A stretch of 64,000 nucleotides of DNA from Geodermatophilus ruber. Lineage in GTDB: Bacteria; Actinomycetota; Actinomycetes; Mycobacteriales; Geodermatophilaceae. Positions within the stretch are counted from its first letter, which is position 1; every line of letters starts with the position of its first letter. Positions 43,052 through 55,365 of this stretch are shown piece by piece. The position numbers were made by a program, and so were the translations under genes. The notes below the pieces were generated by a model, which saw only the letters and a list, made by a program, of their open reading frames with translations, searched no databases and was not told the DNA's origin. The stretch lies in contig NZ_FOSW01000011.1 of the NCBI RefSeq assembly GCF_900114385.1, positions 1 through 64,000 of the forward strand, read 5' to 3'.

Positions 43052-43114
43052 CTGCCCGAACGTAGGGGACCGCGGGGCGCCGCGCGTACCGGGGTCGGTG
43101 TCCCCGGGCGTTGC

Positions 43115-43120
43115 TAGCGT
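43115..43120 (+). promoter_or_regulatory. -10 element, probable leaderless promoter
   Basis: TAGCGT followed by seven bases and GTG 43128; same spacing as before rnj. It decides the start of the racemase gene against GTGs at 43098 and 43119. Confidence 0.45.
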
Positions 43121-43127
43121 GACCGCC

Positions 43128-44282
43128 GTGCAGCCTCCCACCGGCCCGCTGGCGGGCATCCGCGTCGTCGAGCTGGCCGGGCTGGGGCCGGCGCCCTACG
43201 CCTGCATGCTGCTGGCCGAGCTGGGCGCCGACGTGATCCGGGTGGACCGGCCCGGCGGCGGCACGCAGCTGGTGCCCCCGGAGCGGGAGGCGCTGCACCG
43301 CAGCCGCCCGTCGGTCGCCGTCGACCTCAAGCTGCCGGCCGGCCGCGACGTCGTCCTCCGGCTGGTCGACTCGGCCGACGTGCTCGTGGAGGGGCTCCGC
43401 CCGGGCGTCACCGACCGGCTCGGCCTCGGGCCCGACACGTGCCTGGCCCGCAACCCGCGGCTGGTCTACGCGCGGATGACCGGCTGGGGGCAGGACGGCC
43501 CGCTGGCCGCCCGCGCCGGCCACGACATCAACTACCTCGGCCTCACCGGTGCGCTGCACGCCATCGGGACTGCGGACAAGCCCGTCGTCCCGCTCAACAT
43601 CGGGGCGGACTTCGGCGGGGGGTCGATGTTCCTGCTCGTCGGGATCCTCGCGGCCCTGCTCGAGCGGGGCACCAGCGGGCAGGGCCAGGTCGTCGACGCC
43701 GCGATGGTCGACGGCGCCAGCTCGCTGGTCACGATGATCTACGGCCTGCTCGGCGCGGGCCTGTGGCAGGACCGGCGGGCGGCCAACCTGCTCGACGGCG
43801 GCGCGCCCTTCTACGACACCTACGCCTGCGCCGACGGCCGGCACGTGGCGGTCGGCGCGATCGAGCCGCAGTTCCACGCCCAGCTGCTGGCCGGCCTGGG
43901 CATCGACCCCGAGGAGCACGGCCGCCAGGACGACGTCGCGCGGTGGCCCGAGCAGCGGAAGACGATCGCCGGGGTGTTCGCCACCCGCACCCGCGACGAG
44001 TGGGCCGCCGCCTTCGAGGGCACCGACGCCTGCGTCACCCCCGTCCTCGGGCTCACCGAGGCGCCGGCGCACCCGCACCTGGCCGCCCGCGGCACCTTCA
44101 CCGACCGCGGCGGGCACCCGGAGCCGGCGCCGGCCCCGCGGTTCTCCCGCACCCCGGGCGCGGTCCGCGGCGGCCCGCGGACCCCGGGGCAGGACACCCG
44201 GGCGGGGCTGCAGGCGTGGGGCCTCCCCGCCGAGGAGATCCAGGAGCTGCTGGACGCCGGTGCCGTCGTCCAGGCCGGCTGA
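43128..44282 (+). CDS. CaiB/BaiF family, 2-methylacyl-CoA racemase-like
   Basis: 384 residues of the class III CoA-transferase fold. The start PLAGIRVVELAGLGPAPYACMLLAELGADVIRVDRP, the GHDINYLGLTGAL block and ADFGGGSMFLLVGI point to alpha-methylacyl-CoA racemase (Mcr/AMACR) rather than a true transferase. It would epimerise 2-methyl-branched acyl-CoA before beta-oxidation. Next to enoyl-CoA hydratase and MaoC genes. Start set at GTG 43128 because of the leaderless -10; GTG 43098 and 43119 are alternatives. Confidence 0.85.
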   Translation: MQPPTGPLAGIRVVELAGLGPAPYACMLLAELGADVIRVDRPGGGTQLVPPEREALHRSRPSVAVDLKLPAGRDVVLRLVDSADVLVEGLRPGVTDRLGLGPDTCLARNPRLVYARMTGWGQDGPLAARAGHDINYLGLTGALHAIGTADKPVVPLNIGADFGGGSMFLLVGILAALLERGTSGQGQVVDAAMVDGASSLVTMIYGLLGAGLWQDRRAANLLDGGAPFYDTYACADGRHVAVGAIEPQFHAQLLAGLGIDPEEHGRQDDVARWPEQRKTIAGVFATRTRDEWAAAFEGTDACVTPVLGLTEAPAHPHLAARGTFTDRGGHPEPAPAPRFSRTPGAVRGGPRTPGQDTRAGLQAWGLPAEEIQELLDAGAVVQAG

Positions 44283-44334
44283 CCCGGCACACCCACGACC
44301 CCGGCAGACGCAGAATGACACGGGAGGAGCCCCG

Positions 44335-45099
44335 GTGGCGGACGAGGTACTGGTCGAGCGGCGCGACGGCGTCCAGGTCATCACGATCAACCGGCCCGAG
44401 GCGAGGAACGCGCTGACCCGTGCCGTCGCCGAGGGGGTGGCCGCGGCCGTCGATGAGCTCGATGCGTCCGAGGAGCTGCGGGTCGGCGTGCTCACCGGGG
44501 CGGGAGGCACCTTCTCGGCGGGGATGGACCTCAAGGCGTTCCTCCGCGGGGAGACCCCGGCCATCGAGGGGCGCGGGCTGTGCGGGATCACCCAGACCCC
44601 GCCGCGCAAGCCGTTCCTCGCCGCCGTCGAGGGGTGGGCGCTGGCCGGCGGGTTCGAGCTGGTGCTGGCCTGCGACCTCGTCGTCGCCGCGGAGGACGCC
44701 CGGTTCGGCGTCCCGGAGGTCAAGCGCGCCCTGGTCGCCGCCGGCGGCGGTGCCCTGCTGCTGCCGCGGCGGGTGCCGCCCAACGTGGCGATGGAGATGC
44801 TGCTGACCGGCGACCCGCTGGGCGCCCTACGCGCGGCCGAGGTGGGGCTGGTCAACCGGCTGACCCCGCCCGGAGGCGCGCTGGACGGCGCCCTGGAGCT
44901 GGCCGCGAGCATCGCCGCCAACGGCCCGCTGGCGCTGGCCGCCACCAAGCAGGTCGCCCGCGGGAGCACCGACTGGACGACGGAGGAGGGCTGGGCCCGC
45001 CAGGCGGAGCTGATCGCCCCGGTGTTCACCAGTGCCGACGCCCGCGAGGGCGCCACGGCCTTCGCCGAGAAGCGTCCCCCGGTCTGGCGGGGGCGCTGA
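44335..45099 (+). CDS. Enoyl-CoA hydratase/crotonase family protein
   Basis: 254 residues. Crotonase fold with NRPEARNAL, oxyanion hole AGMDLKAF and EGWALAGGFELVLACDLVVA. The catalytic Glu positions include FGVPEVKRALV. GTG start at 44335 has a perfect GGAGGAG site. Same direction and close behind the racemase, so likely the hydration step for the branched acyl-CoA. Confidence 0.9.
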   Translation: MADEVLVERRDGVQVITINRPEARNALTRAVAEGVAAAVDELDASEELRVGVLTGAGGTFSAGMDLKAFLRGETPAIEGRGLCGITQTPPRKPFLAAVEGWALAGGFELVLACDLVVAAEDARFGVPEVKRALVAAGGGALLLPRRVPPNVAMEMLLTGDPLGALRAAEVGLVNRLTPPGGALDGALELAASIAANGPLALAATKQVARGSTDWTTEEGWARQAELIAPVFTSADAREGATAFAEKRPPVWRGR

Positions 45100-45124
45100 G
45101 GCCGCCGGGGGAGCGGGGCGAGCC

Positions 45125-46411
45125 GTGAGCGCGGAGATCACGCCCGACACACGGACCGGCGCCGCACCCGCACCGCAGCAGCTGGGCGCACTGGGGCTGC
45201 TGGGCATCGGCGGCTTCCTGGTGCTCTACCTCAACGCCGCCGCGGTGTTCCTCGGCGTGATGGGGCAGGCCATCGCCCGCAGCTGGCTGGCCTTCGAGCT
45301 CACCGGCTCCAACGCCGCCCTCGGCGGGGTGCTGCTCTCCTTCGGTATCGCGCTGCTGATCGCCACCCCCTGGGGCGGGGTGGCCGCCGACCGGCTGCCC
45401 AAGCGGCTGGTGCTGCAGCTGTCGGTGCTGATCCTCGCCACCTCGAGCGCGTGGATCGGCCTGGCCGTCGTCTTCGACGTCATCCAGTACTGGATGCTGC
45501 TCGGTGCCGGCGTCCTCCAGGCGGTCGGCTTCGCGCTGTTCAACCCGGCCCGGATGGCGTTCCTGTCCGAGCTCGTGCCGCGCGGGTCGGTGCCGCAGGC
45601 GGTGTCGCTACTGCTGGTCAACGCCGAGGTGAACCGGGTGGTCGGTCCCGCGCTGGCCGGCGTCGTGGTCGGCGCCGTGTCCTGGGGCACCGAGGCGGTG
45701 TTCCTCACCAGCGCCGGGCTGGCCACGGTCGGGGTGTTGCTCACCGGCGCCCTCCCGCCCGGTCGCCGGAGGGGGGAGCCGTCGGATCGCTCCCCGTTCG
45801 GGGAGCTGGCCGACGGTGTCCGCTACGTCCGCCGGCATCCCGAGCTGTCCGCGCTGACCTGGTGTGGCATCGGCGTCACGATGTGCGGGATGCCGTATCT
45901 GGCCTTCATGCCGACCATCTCCAGCGACCTGTTCGGGCTCGGGTCGGTGGGCTACGGGGTGCTCTCGGCGATGTCGGCCGTCGGCGGCGTCACCGCCGGC
46001 CTGCTGCTCGGACGGCGCTCGTCCCGGGCAAGGGAGAGCCGGGTGTTCGCCGGGTCGGGGGCGCTGTTCGGCCTGGCCATCTGCGCCCTGGCGGTGACCC
46101 CGAACGCGCGCGTCGCGGTCGCCGTCCTGCTGGTCATCGGCGGGTCGATGCTCGCCTTCCAGACGACCAACCAGTCGCAGCTGATCGCGCTGTCGGACAT
46201 GGAGTACCACGGCCGCGTGCAGTCGCTGATCATGCTCAGCTTCGGCGCCTTCGGCATCGCGGCGCTCCCGCTGGGCCTGCTCGCTGACGTGATCGGCCTG
46301 CGCTGGACGCTCACCGGCATGGGCGTGGCCGTCATCGTCTTCGTGGCGCTGTTCGCCCTGGGCAGCCGGCGGCGGGTGGCCGCGGCGCAGCAGCTGCGCG
46401 ACCTGGGCTGA
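45125..46411 (+). CDS. MFS transporter (MFS_3/EntS type)
   Basis: 428-residue predicted 12-helix transporter. [41 protein letters not shown] and NPARMAFLSELVPRG are typical of the MFS_3 group that exports siderophores or drugs. GTG start 26 bases after the enoyl-CoA hydratase gene. Substrate unknown. Confidence 0.87.
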   Translation: MSAEITPDTRTGAAPAPQQLGALGLLGIGGFLVLYLNAAAVFLGVMGQAIARSWLAFELTGSNAALGGVLLSFGIALLIATPWGGVAADRLPKRLVLQLSVLILATSSAWIGLAVVFDVIQYWMLLGAGVLQAVGFALFNPARMAFLSELVPRGSVPQAVSLLLVNAEVNRVVGPALAGVVVGAVSWGTEAVFLTSAGLATVGVLLTGALPPGRRRGEPSDRSPFGELADGVRYVRRHPELSALTWCGIGVTMCGMPYLAFMPTISSDLFGLGSVGYGVLSAMSAVGGVTAGLLLGRRSSRARESRVFAGSGALFGLAICALAVTPNARVAVAVLLVIGGSMLAFQTTNQSQLIALSDMEYHGRVQSLIMLSFGAFGIAALPLGLLADVIGLRWTLTGMGVAVIVFVALFALGSRRRVAAAQQLRDLG

Positions 46412-46933: not shown

Positions 46934-47764
46934 TCAGGCGGTGGCGGTGCCGTCCTCGGCCGGCCGGGGGACGTCGACGTGCGGCCGGGACTGCCACAGC
47001 GCCCACTCGGCGCTCACGTCCCCGGCCGTGCGCAGCAGCTTCGGCAGGTGCGCGGTGAGCAGGTGCTCGGTGGAGGTCTCCGCCGCGTGCACGGTGACGT
47101 TCATGGCCGCCCGCACCGCACCGGAGCCGTCGCGCACCGGGACGGCGACCGAGCGCACCCCCGGCGCGAGCTCCTCGTCGGCCAGCGCCCAGCCGCGGGC
47201 CCGCACCTCCGTGAGCTCCTCGCGCAGCTGCTCGGTGCTGCGGCCGATGAACGGCGGGAGCCCGGCGCGGCTGGGCTGGGCCAGGGCCGCGTCCAGCTCC
47301 GCGGAGGAGAGCGCGGCCAGCAGCACCTTTCCCTGGGAGGTCTGCGACGCGGGGAAGCGGGTGCCGATCTCGACCCGCAGCGCGATCAGCTTGGGCACCG
47401 ACACCCGCGCCACGTAGACGACGTCGGAGCCGTCGAGCTGGGTCATCGAGGAGGACTCCCCGGTGCTGGCGACCAGCGCCTCCAGGTGCGGCCGGGCGAT
47501 GTCCCACAGCCCGAGCGCGCCGACGTAGGCCATGCCGAGCGTCAGCACCCGCGGCGTCAGCTGGAAGGCGTTGCCGACCGACCGGACGAACCCGAGCTCC
47601 TCGAGGGTGAGCAGCAGCCGCCGGGCGGTCGGGCGGGCCAGGCAGGCGGCCGTCGCGACCTCGGACAGGGTCATGCTGCGGTGGTCCGCGTCGAAGCAGG
47701 CCAGCACGTCCAGTCCGCGTGCCAGCGCCTCGACGAAGTCCGGCCCGGTCCCACGTCCGGCCAT
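46934..47764 (-). CDS. IclR-family regulator of the right-hand catabolic cluster
   Basis: 276 residues: winged helix-turn-helix (LSEVATAACLARPTARRLLLTL) and IclR effector domain. ATG 47764 has an AAGGAG site. Lies downstream of the amidohydrolase gene on the same strand, separated by a strong hairpin. It is the only regulator between 46.9 and 64 kb, so I infer that it recognises the CGGAC-type palindromes found at several promoters there (49.4, 49.5, 54.1, 57.9, 58.1, 62.2 kb). Confidence 0.87.
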   Translation of the reverse strand: MAGRGTGPDFVEALARGLDVLACFDADHRSMTLSEVATAACLARPTARRLLLTLEELGFVRSVGNAFQLTPRVLTLGMAYVGALGLWDIARPHLEALVASTGESSSMTQLDGSDVVYVARVSVPKLIALRVEIGTRFPASQTSQGKVLLAALSSAELDAALAQPSRAGLPPFIGRSTEQLREELTEVRARGWALADEELAPGVRSVAVPVRDGSGAVRAAMNVTVHAAETSTEHLLTAHLPKLLRTAGDVSAEWALWQSRPHVDVPRPAEDGTATA

Positions 47765-47814
47765 GAGGTGCTCCTTCTCTCTCCGGCGAGACCGCTGATC
47801 CCGCACACATCCGG

Positions 47815-47864: not shown

Positions 47865-49349
47865 TCAGCGCCCGAGGACCCGGTCCTCGGAGCCGGAGCG
47901 CTTCGACTCGTCCTTGAAGTCGGTGTACTGGTACGGGTTGTCCAGCACCTCGGTCGAGGGCAGGTCGGGGAACATCCCCTTCTCCCACTCCTCCTCGCCC
48001 ATCTCGGCGCGCAGGTGCGCCACGGTCGCCTCGACCTCGCGGCGGGCCGCGGCCAGGTCGATGCCGACCAGTCGGTGTTCGTGCTTCACGACCCTGCCGT
48101 CGACGAGCACGGTGTGCACGTCGCCGCGCGAGGCCTGGAAGGCCACGTGGCCCAGCGGGTTGAGCAGCGGGAAGGACACCGGCGAGGCGTCGTTCTTGAT
48201 GAGGACGACGTCGGCCTTCTTGCCCGGCTCCAGGCTGCCGAGGTCGGCGTCGCGGCCGATCGAGTGCGCGCCGCCGCGGGTGGCCCACTCGACCACCTGC
48301 TTGGCCCGCAGCCGCAGGTGGGTGATCGTCTCGCCCTTGAGGTGGGCGTCCATGTGCTCGGCCATGCGGTCGGCGTTGAGCGTCGCGCGGATCGCGGAGA
48401 ACATGTCGCCGCTCCACCACACGCTGGTGTCCATCGACAGCGACACCGGGATGCCGTACTGCAGGACCTGCGCCGTGGGCGCGTGCCCCTGGCCGGCGCT
48501 GCACTCGGACTCGGTCGACACGGAGATGGAGCCGCCGGTCGCCGCGATCCGCTGGTAGCTGTCCGCGGTGAGGGTGGCCGCGTGCACGTACGTCGTCTCC
48601 GGGGTCATGAACCCGTGCTCGTGCATGAGCCGGATGCCGTCGTCGTTCGTCGCGGCCCAGACACCGGCGTGCGTGGTCACCGGGATGCCCAGCTCGCGGG
48701 CGGCCTCGAAGGCGGCCTTCTCCGGGAAGGCCGGGTCGCCGGTCACGTCGAAGGCGATCTGCACGCCCATCCGGTCGTCGCCGGCGTCGCGCAGCCGCTC
48801 GAGGAACGTGCGGACGGCCGGGTCGGTCATCCACTCCCACGGCCCGGCGTGGATGTTGCCGTAGGCCAGGACGAAGCGGCCGGGCACCGACCGCAGCGCG
48901 TCCACCGCCGCCTCGGCGTGGTCCACGCTCTGCAGGCCGTGCGACCAGTCGACGGAGGTGGTGACGCCGGCGTCGAGGGCCTCGATGGCCGAGAGCCGGT
49001 TCCCGGCGGCGATGTCCTCCGGCCGGAACTTCCTGCCGTGCTCGAGGTAGTACCAGACGAAGTACTGGGTGAGGGTCCAGTCGGCGCCGTAGCCGCGCAT
49101 CGCCGTCTGCCACATGTGCCGGTGGGTGTCGATCATCCCCGGCATGACGATGCCGCCGCGGGCGTCGATCTCCTGGGTCCCCTCGGGCACGTCCAGGGCG
49201 GTGCCGACGGCGGCGATCCGGTCGTCCACCACGAGGACGTCCGCGCCCTGCAGCACCGTGCAGGCGTCGTCCATGGTGAGCACCGTGCCGCCGCGCAGCA
49301 CCACGGGGCGCCCGGCCCGGGGAACCGCCCCGTCGTGGGAACTGGTCAT
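47865..49349 (-). CDS. Amidohydrolase, TRZ/ATZ (cytosine deaminase-like) family
   Basis: 494 residues. Metal-dependent hydrolase of the guanine deaminase/atrazine chlorohydrolase group: metal motif IDTHRHMWQT near residue 75, VTTHAGVWA, the later metal Asp in SLSMDTSVWWSGD, and the C-terminal beta-domain GSLEPGKKADVVLI. Such enzymes remove amino, chloro or amide groups from heterocycles or linear substrates. GGAGGAGACG precedes ATG 49349. Divergent from the CoA-transferase/LigAB-like operon; shares its operator motif. Confidence 0.87.
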   Translation of the reverse strand: MTSSHDGAVPRAGRPVVLRGGTVLTMDDACTVLQGADVLVVDDRIAAVGTALDVPEGTQEIDARGGIVMPGMIDTHRHMWQTAMRGYGADWTLTQYFVWYYLEHGRKFRPEDIAAGNRLSAIEALDAGVTTSVDWSHGLQSVDHAEAAVDALRSVPGRFVLAYGNIHAGPWEWMTDPAVRTFLERLRDAGDDRMGVQIAFDVTGDPAFPEKAAFEAARELGIPVTTHAGVWAATNDDGIRLMHEHGFMTPETTYVHAATLTADSYQRIAATGGSISVSTESECSAGQGHAPTAQVLQYGIPVSLSMDTSVWWSGDMFSAIRATLNADRMAEHMDAHLKGETITHLRLRAKQVVEWATRGGAHSIGRDADLGSLEPGKKADVVLIKNDASPVSFPLLNPLGHVAFQASRGDVHTVLVDGRVVKHEHRLVGIDLAAARREVEATVAHLRAEMGEEEWEKGMFPDLPSTEVLDNPYQYTDFKDESKRSGSEDRVLGR

Positions 49350-49388
49350 CGTCTCCTCCTCGAGACAGGGGACCGTCAGCGGACCCGC

Positions 49389-49450
49389 GTCCGTATACCG
49401 GTCAGCACATCGGACGTCGCCACCATGCTGGGGCCGCCGGGAGGTGTCAA
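49389..49450 (-). promoter_or_regulatory. Promoter and operator of the amidohydrolase gene
   Basis: On the minus strand TTGACA (49445-49450), 17 bases, then CATGGT (49422-49427). Downstream of it lies the 15-base motif GTCCGTATACCGGTC (49389-49403, plus-strand reading), also found at 49551-49565 and, with changes, at 57930-57944. Confidence 0.55.
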
Positions 49451-49497
49451 GACAGCACCCCGCGGCAGCGGCGGTGCTCAGCGAAAAGGGGTGTCGC

Positions 49498-49565
49498 TTG
49501 ACAGTGACCGGCATCCCACCAAGACTCCGGGGGACGGAATTCGGACTATCGTCCGCATGCCGGTC
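49498..49565 (+). promoter_or_regulatory. Promoter and operators of the CoA-transferase/LigAB-like operon
   Basis: TTGACA (49498-49503), 17 bases, then AAGACT (49521-49526). Just downstream is the palindrome CGGACTATCGTCCG (49542-49555), overlapping GTCCGCATGCCGGTC (49551-49565). This places a repressor site at or after the start point. Confidence 0.6.
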
Positions 49566-49591
49566 GAACAGCGACGAGAGGTGCACGACCG

Positions 49592-50806
49592 ATGACCGCG
49601 AATCCGCTCCTCCCGGGCTCCGCGCCGGGTCGGGGGCCCCTGGCGGGGCTGCTGGTCGCCGATTTCTCCCGCGTCCTCGCGGGCCCCTACGCGACGATGC
49701 TGCTGGCCGACCTCGGCGCCGAGGTGGTCAAGGTGGAGAGCCCGGCCGGTGACGACACCCGCAGCTGGGCGCCCCCCGTGCGCGAGGGCGTCGCCACCTA
49801 CTACCTCGGCATCAACCGCAACAAGCGGTCGGTCGCCCTGGACCTCAAGGACCCCGACGACGCGGCCGCGGCCCGGGAGCTCGCCCGCCGCGCGGACGTC
49901 GTCGTCGAGAACTTCAAGCCCGGGGGCCTGGCCCGCTTCGGCCTGGACTACGACACCGTCGCCGCGGGCAACCCGGGCGTCGTCTACGCCTCGATCAGCG
50001 GATTCGGCAGCGGCCCCGAGGGTGCCCGGCTGCCCGGCTACGACCTCATCGTCCAGGCCATCTCCGGCCTGATGAGCCTGACCGGCGACCCCGACGGTGA
50101 GCCGTTCCGCGCCGGGATCTCCGTCTTCGACGTCATGGCCGGGCTGCACGCCACCATCGGCGTCCTCAGCGCGCTCAACCTCCGGCACGAGACCGGCGCC
50201 GGCCAGCACGTCGAGGTCAACCTGCTCTCCTCGGCGCTGTCCGGGCTGGTCAACCACTCGAGCGCCTACGTCGCCGGGGGCGTCGTCCCGTTCCGGATGG
50301 GCAACAGCCACCCCAGCCTCTTCCCGTACGAGCCGCTGCCGTGCGCCGACGGCGACCTGATCATCACCGCCGGCAACAACGGGCAGTTCCGCAAGCTCGT
50401 CGAGGTGCTCGGCGTGCCCGAGCTCGCCGACGACCCGCGCTTCCTCCGCAACGAGGACCGCAACGCCAACCGCGACCAGCTGCGGCCGCTGCTGGTCGAG
50501 CGGCTGCGCACCCGCACCAAGATGGAGTGGTTCCGCGACATCATCGCCGCGGGTGTGCCGTGCGGCCCGATCAACACCGTCGACCAGGGTGTGGCCTTCG
50601 CCGAGGAGGTGGGCCTCGACCCGGTCGTGACCGTGGGGGAGGGCGCGGCCGCGGTGCCCTCGGTCCGCAACCCGATCCGCTTCTCGGCCACCCCCGCCGA
50701 CTACCGGCTGCCCCCGCCGGGTCTCGACGAGCACGGCGCGGAGATCCGCGAGTGGCTGGGCGCGCCGGCCGCCCGCCCCACCGGCAGCGAGGAGGGGGCC
50801 GCGTGA
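49592..50806 (+). CDS. CaiB/BaiF family CoA-transferase (class III)
   Basis: 404 residues. Class III CoA-transferase with ADFSRVLAGPYATMLLADLGAEVVKVE at the N-terminus, INRNKRSVALDLK and LPGYDLIVQAISGLMSLTG (catalytic Asp in GYD). It would move CoA onto an organic acid. First gene of a tight operon; its TGA overlaps the GTG of the citryl-CoA lyase-like gene. Expected substrate is the di- or tricarboxylate cleaved by that lyase; this is inference. Confidence 0.9.
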   Translation: MTANPLLPGSAPGRGPLAGLLVADFSRVLAGPYATMLLADLGAEVVKVESPAGDDTRSWAPPVREGVATYYLGINRNKRSVALDLKDPDDAAAARELARRADVVVENFKPGGLARFGLDYDTVAAGNPGVVYASISGFGSGPEGARLPGYDLIVQAISGLMSLTGDPDGEPFRAGISVFDVMAGLHATIGVLSALNLRHETGAGQHVEVNLLSSALSGLVNHSSAYVAGGVVPFRMGNSHPSLFPYEPLPCADGDLIITAGNNGQFRKLVEVLGVPELADDPRFLRNEDRNANRDQLRPLLVERLRTRTKMEWFRDIIAAGVPCGPINTVDQGVAFAEEVGLDPVVTVGEGAAAVPSVRNPIRFSATPADYRLPPPGLDEHGAEIREWLGAPAARPTGSEEGAA

Positions 50807-51663
50807 CCGACGACCGCCCGGTCTACCCGACAGCCCTGGGGGCGTCGAGCCTGGAGAGCATCACCCTGCTCGGCACCGACCTCGCCCGCGACGTCATGGG
50901 GGAGGTCGGCTTCGGGGAGCTCGCCTTCTGGCTGGCGACCCAGCGCCGCCCCTCGACGGGGGAGACGCGGGTGTTCGAGGCGGTGCTGGCCGCGCTCGCC
51001 GACCACGGGTTCACCCCGACCGCGATCGTCACCCGGCTGACCTACCTGTCGGCGCCGGACTCCGTGCAGGGCGCGCTCGCCGCCGGCCTGCTGGGGGGCG
51101 GCTCGCGCTTCCTCGGGGTCACCGAGGACTGCGGCCGGTTCCTGCACGACGTCCTCACCTCGGTCGAGGGCGGGCTGCCCACCGACGACGCCGGCTGGGA
51201 CGCCCTGGCGCTGGAGGTCGTGACCGCGCAGCGGGCCGCTCGGCGGTTCGTCCCGGGGCTGGGCCACCACGTGCACAAGCAGGGGGACCCGCGCACCCCG
51301 CGGCTGTTCCAGATCGCCGCCGAGGAGGGGCTCTACGGCCCGCACCTGCAGCTGTTCGCGGCGATCGGGCGGGTGCACCCCCAGGTGCTGGGCAAGACCC
51401 TGCCGCTCAACGGCGCCGGCGTGTGCGGCGCCGCCCTGGCCGACCTCGGCCTCCCGCTGGAGCTGCTGCGCGGCTTCGCGCTGCTGGCCCGCGCCGCCGG
51501 GCTGATCGGGCAGCTGGCCGAGGAGCTGCGGAACCCGGTGGCCAACGACGTCTTCCTGTCGGTCGACCTGAACAACCGCTCCGTCGCTCCCGACCCCTTC
51601 GTCCCGGACCCGCTGCCGGGCGCCCCCTCGGACACCGACACCATTGGAGGTCGTCGTGGCTGA
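50803..51663 (+). CDS. Citryl-CoA lyase-like protein (citrate synthase fold)
   Basis: 286 residues, shorter than citrate synthase and with the reduced citryl-CoA-lyase layout: FGELAFWLATQRRPSTGE, LTYLSAPDSVQGALAAGLLGGGSRFLG, and the catalytic His region VPGLGHHVHKQGDPRTPRLF. The reaction expected for the family is Claisen-type cleavage of a citryl-CoA-like thioester to acetyl-CoA and a keto acid. GTG overlaps the CoA-transferase stop, and the gene ends eight bases into the LigB-like gene. Combination with a CoA-transferase suggests that the acid is first activated, then cleaved. Confidence 0.85.
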   Translation: MTDDRPVYPTALGASSLESITLLGTDLARDVMGEVGFGELAFWLATQRRPSTGETRVFEAVLAALADHGFTPTAIVTRLTYLSAPDSVQGALAAGLLGGGSRFLGVTEDCGRFLHDVLTSVEGGLPTDDAGWDALALEVVTAQRAARRFVPGLGHHVHKQGDPRTPRLFQIAAEEGLYGPHLQLFAAIGRVHPQVLGKTLPLNGAGVCGAALADLGLPLELLRGFALLARAAGLIGQLAEELRNPVANDVFLSVDLNNRSVAPDPFVPDPLPGAPSDTDTIGGRRG

Positions 51664-52519
51664 AGTAGCCGCGGTCATCGCGTCCACGCACCACCCGTTC
51701 TACTACCGGGCCAGCACGGCGACCGGTGCCGACCGGCCGCCGTTCGCCGACGAGTGGGTGGCCAAGATCGAGCGGTTCCGCGAGACGCTGACCAAGGCCC
51801 GCCCGGACGTGCTGGTGATGGTCGGCAGCGACCACTTCCACCAGCTGTGGCTGGATAACATGCCCCAGTTCCTGGTGGGCAAGGCGCCGTTCTTCGACGC
51901 GAACTTCTACAACGAGGAGCGGGAGTTCGGCCTGCCGAAGATGACCCTGCGCGGGGAGGAGGAGCTCGCCGCGCACATCCTCCGCGACGGCCTGGACCGG
52001 GACTTCGACCTGGCGTTCTCCAACGAGCTGCGGATCGACCACAGCATCACGTGCCCGATCATCACCCTGCGGCCGCAGGCGGACCTGCCGATCGTGCCGA
52101 TCTACACCAACATCTTCGCCCCGCCGCTGCCGCAGCCGAAGCGGTTCGTCCAGCTGGGCAAGGCGATCCGCGAGATGGTCGAGTCCTGGGAGAGCGACAA
52201 GCGGGTGGCCATCATCGGCACCGGCCACCTGTCGCTGGAGCTCGGCGGCCCGCGCCAGTTCGGCGAGCACGGCCCCGACCCGGAGTTCGACCGCAAGGCC
52301 GTGGAGTGGATCGCCAGCGGCGACATCGAGGGCTGCCTGGCCGAGGTGAGCCTGGAGAGCCTGCACCACCCCGGCAACGCCACCCACGGGTTCATGGACT
52401 TCATGCTCATGATGGGCGTCGCCGGGGAGGGCCGGAAGGCCGACCACGTCGACACCCTCGACCTCTTCCACACGATGGAGGCCTACTTCACCTGGTACCC
52501 CAACGGGGCGCCGGCCTGA
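51656..52519 (+). CDS. LigB-like extradiol dioxygenase-family protein with altered active-site motif
   Basis: 287 residues of the class III extradiol dioxygenase (LigB/DODA) family. His12 and His60 (THHPFYY; GSDHFH) match the two iron histidines of LigB. The usual catalytic-acid motif of the type GTGGLSHQL reads GTGHLSLEL here (His191, Leu194), and I could not find the usual Glu ligand in the C-terminal GNATHGFMDF region. Ring cleavage is thus uncertain, though a shifted His could substitute. TTGGAGG lies five bases before GTG 51656. The following LigA-like gene supports a two-subunit enzyme. Confidence 0.82.
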   Translation: MAEVAAVIASTHHPFYYRASTATGADRPPFADEWVAKIERFRETLTKARPDVLVMVGSDHFHQLWLDNMPQFLVGKAPFFDANFYNEEREFGLPKMTLRGEEELAAHILRDGLDRDFDLAFSNELRIDHSITCPIITLRPQADLPIVPIYTNIFAPPLPQPKRFVQLGKAIREMVESWESDKRVAIIGTGHLSLELGGPRQFGEHGPDPEFDRKAVEWIASGDIEGCLAEVSLESLHHPGNATHGFMDFMLMMGVAGEGRKADHVDTLDLFHTMEAYFTWYPNGAPA

Positions 52520-52550
52520 GGCCGCGGACGACCGGAACGGAGACATCGGC

Positions 52551-52910
52551 ATGAGCAAGTACCTGCTCGACAAGTTCCTCTACACCGTCGACCGCGACCC
52601 CGAGCTGGTCGAGCGCTACCGGGAGGACCCGGTCGGCACGGTGGAGTGGTGGGAGGCCGAGATGGCCAACAAGCTGCTCAACTGCATCGACGACGAGAAG
52701 ACCACCTGGCTGGCCTTCACCGAGGAGGAGCGGAAGGCGCTGCGCGAGCACGACCACGTCACCCTCTTCCAGATGGGCGCGCACCCCTTCCTCACCCTCA
52801 CGCTCTTCATCGCCATGTTCGAGCGCGACCACGGCCCGCTGGAGTACCAGAAGGCCTACGGCAAGGCGATGGAGCACATCACCATGCCGTACCCGGACAT
52901 CACGACCTGA
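52551..52910 (+). CDS. LigA-like small subunit of extradiol dioxygenase
   Basis: 119 residues, the size and helical character of the alpha subunit LigA of protocatechuate 4,5-dioxygenase, with a LigA-like FTEEERKALREHDHVTLFQMGAHPFL segment. LigA-type subunits cap the active site of the LigB-type subunit. Last gene of the four-gene operon; terminator-like hairpin follows. Confidence 0.85.
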   Translation: MSKYLLDKFLYTVDRDPELVERYREDPVGTVEWWEAEMANKLLNCIDDEKTTWLAFTEEERKALREHDHVTLFQMGAHPFLTLTLFIAMFERDHGPLEYQKAYGKAMEHITMPYPDITT

Positions 52911-52995: not shown

Positions 52996-53970
52996 ATGCG
53001 CGCCGCCGTCCTGCACACTCCCGGAGCCCCGCCGTCGTACGGCACGCACCCCGAGCCGGCCGCGGGGGAGGGGCGGACGCTTGTGCGGGTCACCGCCGCG
53101 CCCGTCGTCCCGCTCGACCTGCTCTGCGCGTCGGGCACCTCCTACTTCGGCCGCCCGGCGGTGCCGTACGTGCCGGGCGTGCAGGGGGTGGGGGTCGTCG
53201 AGCGGTCCGCCGTCCACCCGGTCGGCACCCGCGTCTGGTTCGCCACCTCCGCCGGGATGGCGCCCGGGGACGGCAGCCTGGCCGAGCTGTGCGCGGTGCC
53301 CGACGGCGATGTCGTCCCGGTGACCGCGGCGGTGCCCGACGCGCTCGTGGCGGCGCTGGGTCTCTCGGCCGTCGCGGCCTGGATGGCGCTGACCTGGCGC
53401 GGCCGGCTGCGGGCCGGCGAGCGGGTGCTCGTCCTCGGCGCCGGGGGCGCGGTCGGCCAGGTCGCGGTGGGGGCGGCGCGGCTGCTGGGCGCCGGCCGGG
53501 TGGTCGCGGTCTGCCGGTCGGAGGAGGCGCAGGAGCGGGCCCGCCGGGCGGGGGCCGACGAGGTGGTCGCGCTGGTGGCGGACGTCGACGAGCTGACCGC
53601 GCGCCTGGCGCAGGCCTGCGACGGTGGCGTCGACCTGGTCGTCGACCCGGTGTTCGGCACCGCGGCCACCGCCGCCTCGCAGGTGCTCGCGCCGTTCGGT
53701 CGGCTGGTGAACCTCGGCGGGGCCTCCGGGGACGAGGCGGCCTTCTCCTCCTCGGTCCTGCGCAGCCGCAGCGCGGAGGTGCTGGGCTACACCAACAACG
53801 CGCTGCGCGCCGAGCAGCGGGAGCAGGCGCTGACCGCGGTCCTGGAGCACGCCGAGCGCGGCGCCCTCGGCCTGGAGCACCTCGTCCTCCCGCTGGCCGA
53901 GGTCGAGCACGGCTGGGCCGGCACCGCGCAGGGAGCCGGCCGGCGGGTCGTGCTCCAGCCCGGCGCCTGA
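52996..53970 (+). CDS. Zinc-free quinone-oxidoreductase-type dehydrogenase
   Basis: 324 residues of the MDR superfamily, quinone oxidoreductase branch: VPYVPGVQGVGVVE, nucleotide loop VLGAGGAVGQVAVGAARLLGAGRVVA, and DLVVDPVFG. No structural-zinc cysteine cluster. Likely reduces an enone, quinone or acyl-CoA double bond with NADPH. GAGGAGG precedes the ATG. Same direction as the LigAB-like operon but behind a terminator, so it may have its own promoter. Confidence 0.87.
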   Translation: MRAAVLHTPGAPPSYGTHPEPAAGEGRTLVRVTAAPVVPLDLLCASGTSYFGRPAVPYVPGVQGVGVVERSAVHPVGTRVWFATSAGMAPGDGSLAELCAVPDGDVVPVTAAVPDALVAALGLSAVAAWMALTWRGRLRAGERVLVLGAGGAVGQVAVGAARLLGAGRVVAVCRSEEAQERARRAGADEVVALVADVDELTARLAQACDGGVDLVVDPVFGTAATAASQVLAPFGRLVNLGGASGDEAAFSSSVLRSRSAEVLGYTNNALRAEQREQALTAVLEHAERGALGLEHLVLPLAEVEHGWAGTAQGAGRRVVLQPGA

Positions 53971-54029: not shown

Positions 54030-54054
54030 GCACGCAAGGGCGTGGATGTGCTCC

Positions 54055-54105
54055 TTGACACAGCGCCATGAGGAAGGCATCGTCCTCATGTCCGCGACGC
54101 GGACA
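54055..54105 (+). promoter_or_regulatory. Promoter and operator of the P450 gene
   Basis: TTGACA (54055-54060), 17 bases, CATCGT (54078-54083), then the perfect palindrome TGTCCGCGACGCGGACA (54089-54105) at the expected start point. The same 7-3-7 palindrome layout recurs at 58073. Confidence 0.65.
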
Positions 54106-54159
54106 ACTGTCCATTTCCGCAGCCCTGCGGTCCCGCGCGTTGGAAGGACCCCCTCGGAC

Positions 54160-55365
54160 ATGCCCATGACCGCCCCGACGTCGGCCCCCACGTACGACGG
54201 CGACATCTACTGCGACGCGGCGCTGCTGGAGCCGTACGAGGACTACCGCAACCTGCGCGAGCTGGGCCCGGCCGTGTGGCTGTCGCAGCACGGCGCCTAC
54301 GCCGTCGCCCGCTACGACGAGGCCCGCGCGGTGCTCATGGACGGCGACACCTTCCGGTCGGCCAACGGCATCGCGCTCAACGAGCCGGCCAACCAGGCGA
54401 TCCTCGGCTGCACGCTGGCCAGCGACGGCGAGCTGCACGCCCACCTGCGGCAGGTGGTGGCCCACCGGCTCACCCCCCGCGCCCTGCGCCCGATGAAGGA
54501 CATGGTCGCCGAGAAGGCCGACGAGCTGGTCGCCGGGCTGGTGGAGAAGGGCTCCTTCGACGCCGTCGCCGACCTGGCCCGCGCACTGCCCCTGTCGATC
54601 GTCCCGGACTTCATCGGCTGGCCGCAGGAGGGCCGCGAGCACCTGCTGCGGTGGGCCGGCGCCAACTTCGACTCCTTCGGTCCGATGAACGCGCGGGTGG
54701 AGCAGGCGCTGCCGCAGTGCGGCGAGATGGCCGCCTTCGGCGCGGAGATCGTCCGCACCCGCAACGTCTCGCCGGGCAGCCTGGGCGCCGGCGTGCTCGA
54801 GGCCGTCGACCAGGGCACCATCACCACCGAGCAGGCGATGATGCTCATGCTCGACTACCTGGCGCCCTCGCTGGACACCACGATCAGCGCCGTCGGCAGC
54901 GCGATCTGGCTGTTCTCCCAGCACCCCGACCAGTGGGACCTGATCCGCAACGACCCGAAGCTCATCCCCAACGCGGTCAACGAGGTCGTCCGGATCGAGT
55001 CCCCGATCCGCGCCTTCGGCCGGCTCGCCAGCCGGGACACCCGGATCGGCGACGTGGAGATCCCCGAGGGCTCGCGCGTGGTGGTCATCTACGCCTCGGC
55101 CAACCGCGACGAGCGCAAGTTCGAGCGCCCCGACGAGTTCGACGTCACCCGGGCCAACGCCGTCCACCAGCTCGGCTTCGGGATGGGCGAGCACGGCTGC
55201 GCCGGCGCCGGCCTGGCCCGGATGGAGACCGAGTCGCTCCTGCAGGCGCTGGCGCCGCGGGTGACCCGGTTCCACCTCGACGGCACCGAGCGGGCGCTGA
55301 ACAACCTCATCCGCGCCTTCGGGCGGGTCGACGTCACCATCGACCGGGCCCCCGCGCAGGGCTGA
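54160..55365 (+). CDS. Cytochrome P450
   Basis: 401 residues, soluble bacterial P450. I-helix LDYLAPSLDTTISAV with the Thr of oxygen activation, ExxR in NEVVRIESP, and the heme Cys in FGMGEHGCAGAGLAR near residue 345. Length and N-terminal PYEDYRNLRELGPAVWL suggest similarity to CYP199-type aromatic O-demethylases/hydroxylases, from memory. No ferredoxin or reductase gene is adjacent, so electron partners are elsewhere. ATG 54160 preferred; GGAAGGA is eleven bases upstream. ATG 54166 is an alternative. Confidence 0.92.
   Translation: MPMTAPTSAPTYDGDIYCDAALLEPYEDYRNLRELGPAVWLSQHGAYAVARYDEARAVLMDGDTFRSANGIALNEPANQAILGCTLASDGELHAHLRQVVAHRLTPRALRPMKDMVAEKADELVAGLVEKGSFDAVADLARALPLSIVPDFIGWPQEGREHLLRWAGANFDSFGPMNARVEQALPQCGEMAAFGAEIVRTRNVSPGSLGAGVLEAVDQGTITTEQAMMLMLDYLAPSLDTTISAVGSAIWLFSQHPDQWDLIRNDPKLIPNAVNEVVRIESPIRAFGRLASRDTRIGDVEIPEGSRVVVIYASANRDERKFERPDEFDVTRANAVHQLGFGMGEHGCAGAGLARMETESLLQALAPRVTRFHLDGTERALNNLIRAFGRVDVTIDRAPAQG

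Follow-up and report, generated by a model that had tools for sequence, protein, structure and literature searches.

What is a LigAB-fold ring opener doing in an operon with a CoA-transferase and a relative of citryl-CoA lyase? The question is raised by a four-gene core (49592..52910) in a 64,000-nt stretch of Geodermatophilus ruber NZ_FOSW01000011.1 (the window), where genes for a CoA-transferase, a citryl-CoA-lyase-like protein (CCL), and LigB-like and LigA-like subunits are confirmed as real and as together forming one operon. A preliminary description of this DNA had named the four genes and their families correctly, and had read them as a LigAB-like operon for protocatechuate or gallate 4,5-cleavage that ends in citryl-CoA-lyase chemistry. 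We find that the unit exceeds four genes – it also includes an amidohydrolase gene read in the opposite direction (AmdH) and an IclR regulator of the PcaR type – and, with moderate confidence, read it as an IclR-controlled catabolic operon in which a vicinal-triol aromatic ring would be opened, followed by an AmdH step, CoA loading and C–C cleavage. No account of this operon was found in the open-access literature searched at title and abstract level (subscription papers lay outside its scope), and an undescribed pathway is our best reading. The most notable points, which go beyond the preliminary description, are the exchange of ring openers among related loci and the broken catalytic signatures of two enzymes.

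Conservation of the gene set was followed by a scan of named genomes with the CCL alignment. At least 597 stretches were obtained, at least 568 of which encode a relative, and the best 80 loci were kept; these come from Geodermatophilus, Modestobacter, Blastococcus, Pseudonocardia, Actinomadura, Microbispora, Nonomuraea, Streptomyces, Amycolatopsis and other genera. Because the scan patterns were GLGH[PH]VHK and HG[FL]TP[TS]AI[AV], conservation of CCL His155 and His68 in the 80 loci is partly by construction; the NGAG stretch considered below lies outside both patterns. Beside the CCL, the best 80 loci encode the CoA-transferase (78), AmdH (75), the IclR regulator (72) and an MDR-family oxidoreductase (50); the corresponding figures for the 65 loci in which the CCL is flanked on both sides by no less than 4.5 kb are 64, 64, 62 and 43. 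Ring-opener genes are less constant: LigB and LigA are each found in 47 of the 80 loci and an intradiol dioxygenase in 30. The CoA-transferase is constant beside the CCL; LigAB is not. Inspection by eye, with numerous shadow open reading frames in the way, brought out no other gene family shared throughout the 80 loci; recurring unlabelled clusters, which mostly resembled such shadow frames (again by eye), were not used.

Across the order, matches to NF004868 at E ≤ 1e-30 are present in 88 of 298 genomes and exceed the model's cut-off in 76. The LigB variant is rarer: at E < 1e-170 it occurs in 7/296 genomes of the phylum, the window's included, and at E ≤ 1e-25 in 12/296. Five of the seven strong genomes belong to other classes; in four of these five (L173, L175, L176 and L177) CoA-transferase, CCL, LigB, LigA, AmdH and IclR regulator all stand together, and the fifth (L174) shows just LigB and LigA on a contig that ends 2.3 kb upstream. 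A PobA-like flavin monooxygenase lies near the cluster at six loci (L058, L100, L117, L121, L134 and L137; five of the 80 plus L058) from Actinomycetospora and one further genome; that of L134 scores 261.4 bits against PRK08243, below its cut-off of 351. Thirteen loci (twelve of the 80 plus L058) have a single-domain MetE-like protein (PF01717) nearby, for example L100:12100-13125.

The part of the operon that varies is the ring opener. The best 80 loci divide into 45 with LigB only, 28 with the intradiol dioxygenase only, two with both and five with neither; three of these last five end at most 60 bases past the CCL, one has 3.1 kb downstream and one (L106) has full flanks. In the 65 fully flanked loci the division is 40, 23, one and one (Fisher 2.5e-15 for mutual exclusion, on rows that are not phylogenetically independent). 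LigB is directly downstream of the CCL in 47/47 cases; of the 30 intradiol genes, 12 follow the CCL directly, 14 lie further downstream but no more than 2.5 kb away, and four lie upstream of it. A plain LigAB operon, as first described, is therefore ruled out: LigAB is an exchangeable part.

In the window's family, Geodermatophilaceae, 42 of 51 sampled genomes have the CCL. The LigB variant (E ≤ 1e-100) is found in 19 and a close intradiol enzyme (71-100% identity) in 22, all of them among these 42; the cut for a close enzyme was chosen post hoc, at a gap between 454.7 and 257 bits that is interrupted only by a partial match in genome G221. Forty-one of the 42 hold one opener and none holds both intact: G221 has LigB plus the partial intradiol match, and G099 has neither. 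Neither opener occurs in any of the nine family genomes that lack the CCL (0/9). For the family-level LigB and intradiol counts, whose rows are again not independent, Fisher's test gives 3.3e-9. On the best CCL tree the opener label changes 11 times, at least two changes being forced by starred branches, but because this is a quick tree with mostly weak inner branches (14/85 starred) the number of exchanges is uncertain. The label is more clustered on the tree than shuffled labels (mean 23-25 changes; 0/500 as low). Both kinds of opener exist inside each of Geodermatophilus, Blastococcus, Pseudonocardia, Actinomycetospora, Amycolatopsis and Streptomyces, and the closest CCL to that of the window (95% identity) sits in a Geodermatophilus africanus locus of the intradiol type (L062), the CoA-transferases of the two loci being 84% and their AmdH proteins 80% identical.

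With unrelated openers replacing one another beside a constant CoA-transferase, CCL and AmdH, one of two things should hold: both openers yield a common product, or the enzymes of the constant genes work ahead of them. In the latter case the CoA-transferase, CCL and AmdH would shorten or unmask a side chain to give a triol or diol, which the two openers would then cut differently, with genes elsewhere processing the products. Such an arrangement would require no common product from extradiol-fold and intradiol enzymes, and it would fit the lack of any other recognised constant lower-pathway gene; but PcaR-type IclR regulators usually respond to ring-acid intermediates, the semialdehyde products of extradiol cleavage require further enzymes, none of which was seen, and we know of no citrate-synthase-fold enzyme that cuts aromatic side chains. 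We consider it fairly unlikely.

The exchanged intradiol enzyme consists of Dioxygenase_N and Dioxygenase_C domains. Its nearest PDB relatives are PnpC (3n9t, 9e-76) and hydroxyquinol 1,2-dioxygenase (1tmx, 5.8e-75), and the Tyr, Tyr, His and His iron ligands of the family are retained in 31/31 cluster enzymes: by these features it is a member of the hydroxyquinol 1,2-dioxygenase family, with its substrate only predicted. A separate hydroxyquinol-dioxygenase-like paralog (43-48% identity) is present in 15 of the 19 LigAB-type and five of the 22 intradiol-type family genomes. The window's genome has a second hydroxyquinol-dioxygenase-like gene at C11:86956-87804 (L180), 45% identical to the cluster type, which adjoins an AraC-type-looking regulator; no maleylacetate reductase was recognised nearby (both judged by eye).

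These relationships invite a hydroxyquinol variant of the pathway, which overlaps the triol reading in its last steps: the opener would produce maleylacetate, the MDR enzyme (where present) would reduce it, the CoA-transferase would form a 3-oxoacyl-CoA, and retro-Claisen cleavage by the CCL would give acetyl-CoA and a C4 acid, replacing PcaIJ/PcaF. The affinities of the intradiol enzyme, the PcaR-type regulator, and maleylpyruvate-isomerase-like genes near two CCLs of the NGAG type all point this way. Against it, the paralog found in many family genomes raises the possibility of another substrate for the cluster enzyme, maleylacetate would not come from a standard extradiol cut, AmdH is left unexplained, and the MDR gene is absent from 30/80 loci; on balance we regard this variant as improbable.

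If the openers are equivalent, what does the LigAB-fold enzyme do? The LigB-fold subunit (51644..52519, + strand) has residue numbers counted here from the TTG at 51644, with GTG at 51656 the likelier start; it is followed by the divergent LigA-like small subunit (52551..52910, + strand). LigB has the fold of class III extradiol dioxygenases, and these are its best models, every one scoring below its cut-off; LigA falls below the Pfam cut-off. Both folds are closest to that of DesB, a gallate (triol) dioxygenase. AlphaFold predicts LigB with moderate confidence (pLDDT 63.7), the likely active-site loops containing low-scoring segments. Compared with viral structures the LigB model gave no match at E ≤ 0.001, and a LigA profile run against PDB sequences gave nothing useful.

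In DesB, according to PMC3962378, Glu239 is an iron ligand, His192 is the catalytic base and Asn57 also has an assigned role. All three have changed in the window's LigB: Glu239 corresponds to Gly249, Asn57 to Ser62 and His192 to Leu198. Gly249 and Leu198 are found in 48/48 LigB variants, the Gly249 column having been placed via genomic paralogs (alignments with DesB stopped short of it). Of the iron site (DesB His12, His59, Glu239) two His are retained and the Glu is gone, leaving no 2-His-1-carboxylate motif, while the place of the base (DesB His192 / LigB His195) is taken by Leu198, with a His three residues earlier. Beyond the lost sites, His17, His66, His195 and His248 are invariant. Canonical protocatechuate/gallate 4,5-cleavage, as given in the preliminary description, finds no support in view of these changes, and the label of class III extradiol dioxygenase is probably misleading for this protein. 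Loss of the second-sphere His in the H200F variant of homoprotocatechuate 2,3-dioxygenase reportedly switches extradiol to intradiol cleavage (H200F was not found in our literature search); loss of the second-sphere His together with the Glu ligand would suit a departure of LigB from extradiol chemistry. It is possible, and we propose it tentatively, that a LigAB fold without carboxylate ligand or base performs intradiol-type or triol-specific cleavage, equals the intradiol enzyme in function, and feeds an undescribed CoA route with an Asp-less lyase.

The same changes might be taken to mean that the LigAB variant is a metal-dependent hydrolase or lyase and no dioxygenase, in which case LigAB-type and intradiol-type clusters would differ in substrate. 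Loss of ligand and base in all 48 variants and the extra invariant His argue for this, as does the DesB His192Phe mutant, which is inactive according to PMC3962378. We think it unlikely, however, given that within a single genus both openers are found in the same slot with highly identical partners (window vs L062), and that they exclude each other almost perfectly within one family.

At a distant locus (L178:6408-10714) an atypical LigB (36%) is accompanied by a possible LigA (32% over 81 residues), a family III CoA-transferase, an amidohydrolase of PF04909 and an MDR protein; this is a possible ancestral or parallel module.

The second broken signature is that of the CCL (50803..51663, + strand). 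The protein has the small-domain architecture of the citrate synthase superfamily, exceeds the cut-off of NF004868 (267.6 vs 193 bits) and matches citryl-CoA lyase (PDB 6hxp) at 2.8e-24, but the catalytic Asp of citryl-CoA lyase is gone: NVDG has become NGAG in 81/81 CCLs. In the order-level set NGAG is found in 49/51, the exceptions being L024 (NVDG) and L051 (NVTG). This Asp is D375 in citrate synthase. The His of the SAHGG motif is changed as well (SRFLG); because ATP-citrate lyases likewise lack this His yet retain the Asp, loss of the Asp is the telling change. The CCL keeps the equivalents of residues that in citrate synthase hold the 2-oxo-acid half, and has lost the one that handles the acetyl-CoA enolate. 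A normal citryl-CoA lyase is rejected on the loss of the Asp, the canonical chemistry first proposed finds no support, and the database label 'citryl-CoA lyase' is probably misleading.

That the substrate of the CCL is a CoA thioester is supported by three further loci (L145, L146 and L147), where NGAG-type CCLs adjoin an AMP-binding acyl-CoA ligase. Together with the pairing of CoA-transferase and CCL, this lends weight to the earlier proposal of a ring-cleavage operon employing a CoA-transferase together with a lyase of the citrate synthase fold. A one-domain VOC protein lies near the CCL at L145 and L147, and mycothiol-maleylpyruvate-isomerase-like genes at L145 and L146; perhaps L145-L147 encode a related pathway that relies on yet another, third type of opener. 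At L148 the neighbors of a CCL (38%) are a family III CoA-transferase and proteins of the hydantoinase A/B type.

Two constant enzymes remain. The CoA-transferase (49592..50806, + strand) is of the family III, CaiB/FRC type: PF02515 matches at full length, over positions 1-365 of 366 (2e-115), and Asp151, catalytic in this family, is invariant (79/79). AmdH (47865..49586, - strand; PF01979, 3.1e-30) is an Amidohydro_1 metal-dependent hydrolase distantly related to chlorohydrolases and deaminases, its closest PDB relative being atrazine chlorohydrolase (4v1x, 6.7e-29). His155, His157, His306, His335 and Asp386, which presumably serve the metal, are invariant, as is Val309 at a site where Glu is the usual residue (76/76). 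A purine/triazine-type deaminase role was set aside on account of this Val, though not firmly.

A conventional route probably exists in the same genome besides the window operon. LigB-family genes occur at twelve places; among them a conventional LigA/LigB pair lies on the same contig (C24) at 110.8-112.1 kb (L143; PCA_ligA 120.5 bits, PRK13366 378 bits), with PIG-L (GalB-like) and RraA-like (LigK-like) genes 2.5-3.7 kb upstream. PIG-L is the protein type to which GalB belongs, and RraA that of LigK. Also upstream are genes for a Rieske VanA_C oxygenase and a reductase, and the region at 107-112 kb is likely to be an ordinary protocatechuate/gallate route, which, having its own GalB-like and LigK-like neighbors, need not use the window operon. 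RraA-like genes lie at four places in the genome, all outside the window (the nearest is C24:107927), and no PIG-L hydratase was seen among the scanned operon neighbors. Three RraA-like genes lie in tandem at C8:196728-198518.

Could the operon nevertheless carry gallate or protocatechuate through 4,5-cleavage to 4-oxalomesaconate, with AmdH as hydratase forming the tricarboxylate, CoA loading, and a true citryl-CoA-lyase split to acetyl-CoA and a keto acid? The similarity of the LigB fold to DesB, the joint presence of CoA-transferase and CCL, and the membership of the hydratase LigJ in the amidohydrolase superfamily would be in keeping with this scheme. It is made very doubtful by the missing DesB equivalents in LigB, the missing Asp in all 81 CCLs, the conventional LigAB genes with their upstream neighbors, and the hydroxyquinol-type intradiol enzyme, an odd opener for gallate. 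The CoA-dependent lower pathway proposed in the preliminary description is hence plausible in outline, its citryl-CoA-lyase scheme being unproven and its lyase not canonical.

We therefore return to the vicinal-triol reading, for which substrate and order of steps are inferred from the observed gene set, its conservation, the interchange of openers and the residue changes. First, O2 would open the ring via the LigAB-fold enzyme here and via the hydroxyquinol-type intradiol dioxygenase in sister genomes, both giving one common dicarboxylate; this would follow if a 1,2,3-triol is cut between two C-OH carbons, or if LigAB works in an intradiol-like manner. A cut between two hydroxylated carbons, as with gallate and DesB, yields a dicarboxylate by either type of cleavage. 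Second, AmdH would carry out one metal-dependent step on the cleavage product or its precursor (hydration, lactone/ester hydrolysis, or decarboxylation). Third, going by its family, the CoA-transferase would convert the acid to a CoA thioester, and fourth, the NGAG-type CCL would break a C–C bond to release a short acid and an acyl-CoA, with acetyl-CoA as one candidate product. The MDR enzyme would be optional. Further points in favor are the closeness of the LigB and LigA folds to the triol dioxygenase DesB, the NGAG-type CCLs that adjoin an acyl-CoA ligase, and the distant L178 locus, where a LigB of the atypical kind again accompanies a family III CoA-transferase and an amidohydrolase. The probabilities that we attach to the several readings do not sum to one, since the alternatives partly overlap this one.

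Several points weigh against it, in addition to the uncertain number of exchanges. The cluster intradiol enzyme resembles enzymes for hydroxyquinol, a 1,2,4-triol, from which maleylacetate is expected, unlike the product of an ordinary extradiol cut; DesB itself shows only trace activity on pyrogallol according to PMC3962378; and the PobA-like genes at six loci hint at a hydroxybenzoate-type precursor and not a free triol. The changes in LigB might mean that it is no dioxygenase, a CCL without the Asp may be unable to cleave C–C bonds, and the steps of AmdH and CCL could precede the opening of the ring. Finally, one LigB variant with LigA (L174:9530-10755) has neither CCL nor CoA-transferase upstream, where its contig extends for 2.3 kb, and the distant LigB of L178 has no CCL match in 20 kb.

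The remaining features of the unit flank the core. The regulator gene (46934..47806, - strand) encodes an IclR-family protein like the PcaR/PcaU/PobR subfamily (TIGR02431, 255.5 bits, below the cut-off of 284.75). The likely start of AmdH is an ATG at 49349, with GGAGGAG ahead of it; assuming this start, the divergent intergenic region between AmdH and the CoA-transferase (49350..49591) is, from gene geometry, a probable promoter/operator region. Downstream lies the accessory MDR-family NAD(P)H oxidoreductase of the quinone reductase/enoyl reductase type (52996..53970, + strand; PF00107, 7.1e-19). The P450 gene at 54046-55365 and an HsaA-like gene near 58-59 kb were rejected as core members, neither being recognised among the gene clusters that recur in the 80 loci. 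Just upstream of the unit, 43098-46411 holds a second family III CoA-transferase, an enoyl-CoA hydratase (PRK08252, over its cut-off) and a reading frame that by eye resembles an MFS transporter.

If the openers are equal, extradiol-fold and intradiol enzymes have replaced each other in a single operon, probably on several occasions, and this has a bearing on how an enzyme is committed to extradiol or to intradiol cleavage. From the altered residues of LigB and CCL, definite predictions follow about the metal site and the chemistry. Given how common the CCL is in the window's family (the LigB variant being rarer across the phylum), the carbon source may be one widely used by these soil bacteria.

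Set beside known systems, the operon shares parts with several. In comparison with DesB and LigAB protocatechuate 4,5-dioxygenase, its gene order is LigB then LigA, the operon has no RraA gene, and its LigA scores below the Pfam cut-off; with the protocatechuate/gallate 4,5-cleavage pathway it has the LigAB-fold opener in common, whereas the RraA aldolase is lacking in the window and the PIG-L hydratase among the scanned operon neighbors, both kinds being present by the conventional LigAB. Like citryl-CoA lyase 6hxp and the CCL domain of ATP-citrate lyase, the window's CCL is a single-domain relative of citrate synthase that retains the DHG, GxGH and DPR motifs; both of those keep NVDG where it has NGAG, and its partner is a CoA-transferase instead of citryl-CoA synthetase. 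The opener of the sister loci belongs to the same family as hydroxyquinol 1,2-dioxygenase (PnpC 3n9t, 1tmx) and differs from the paralog encoded in the same genome (identity about 45%); no maleylacetate reductase was recognised as constant in the cluster loci. CoA loading followed by C–C cleavage is the logic both of the end of the 3-oxoadipate pathway (PcaIJ/PcaF) and of itaconate-type CoA-transferase/lyase routes. The window operon follows this logic too and likewise has a PcaR-type regulator, but in it PcaIJ and the thiolase give way to a CoA-transferase of family III and a protein with the citrate synthase fold.

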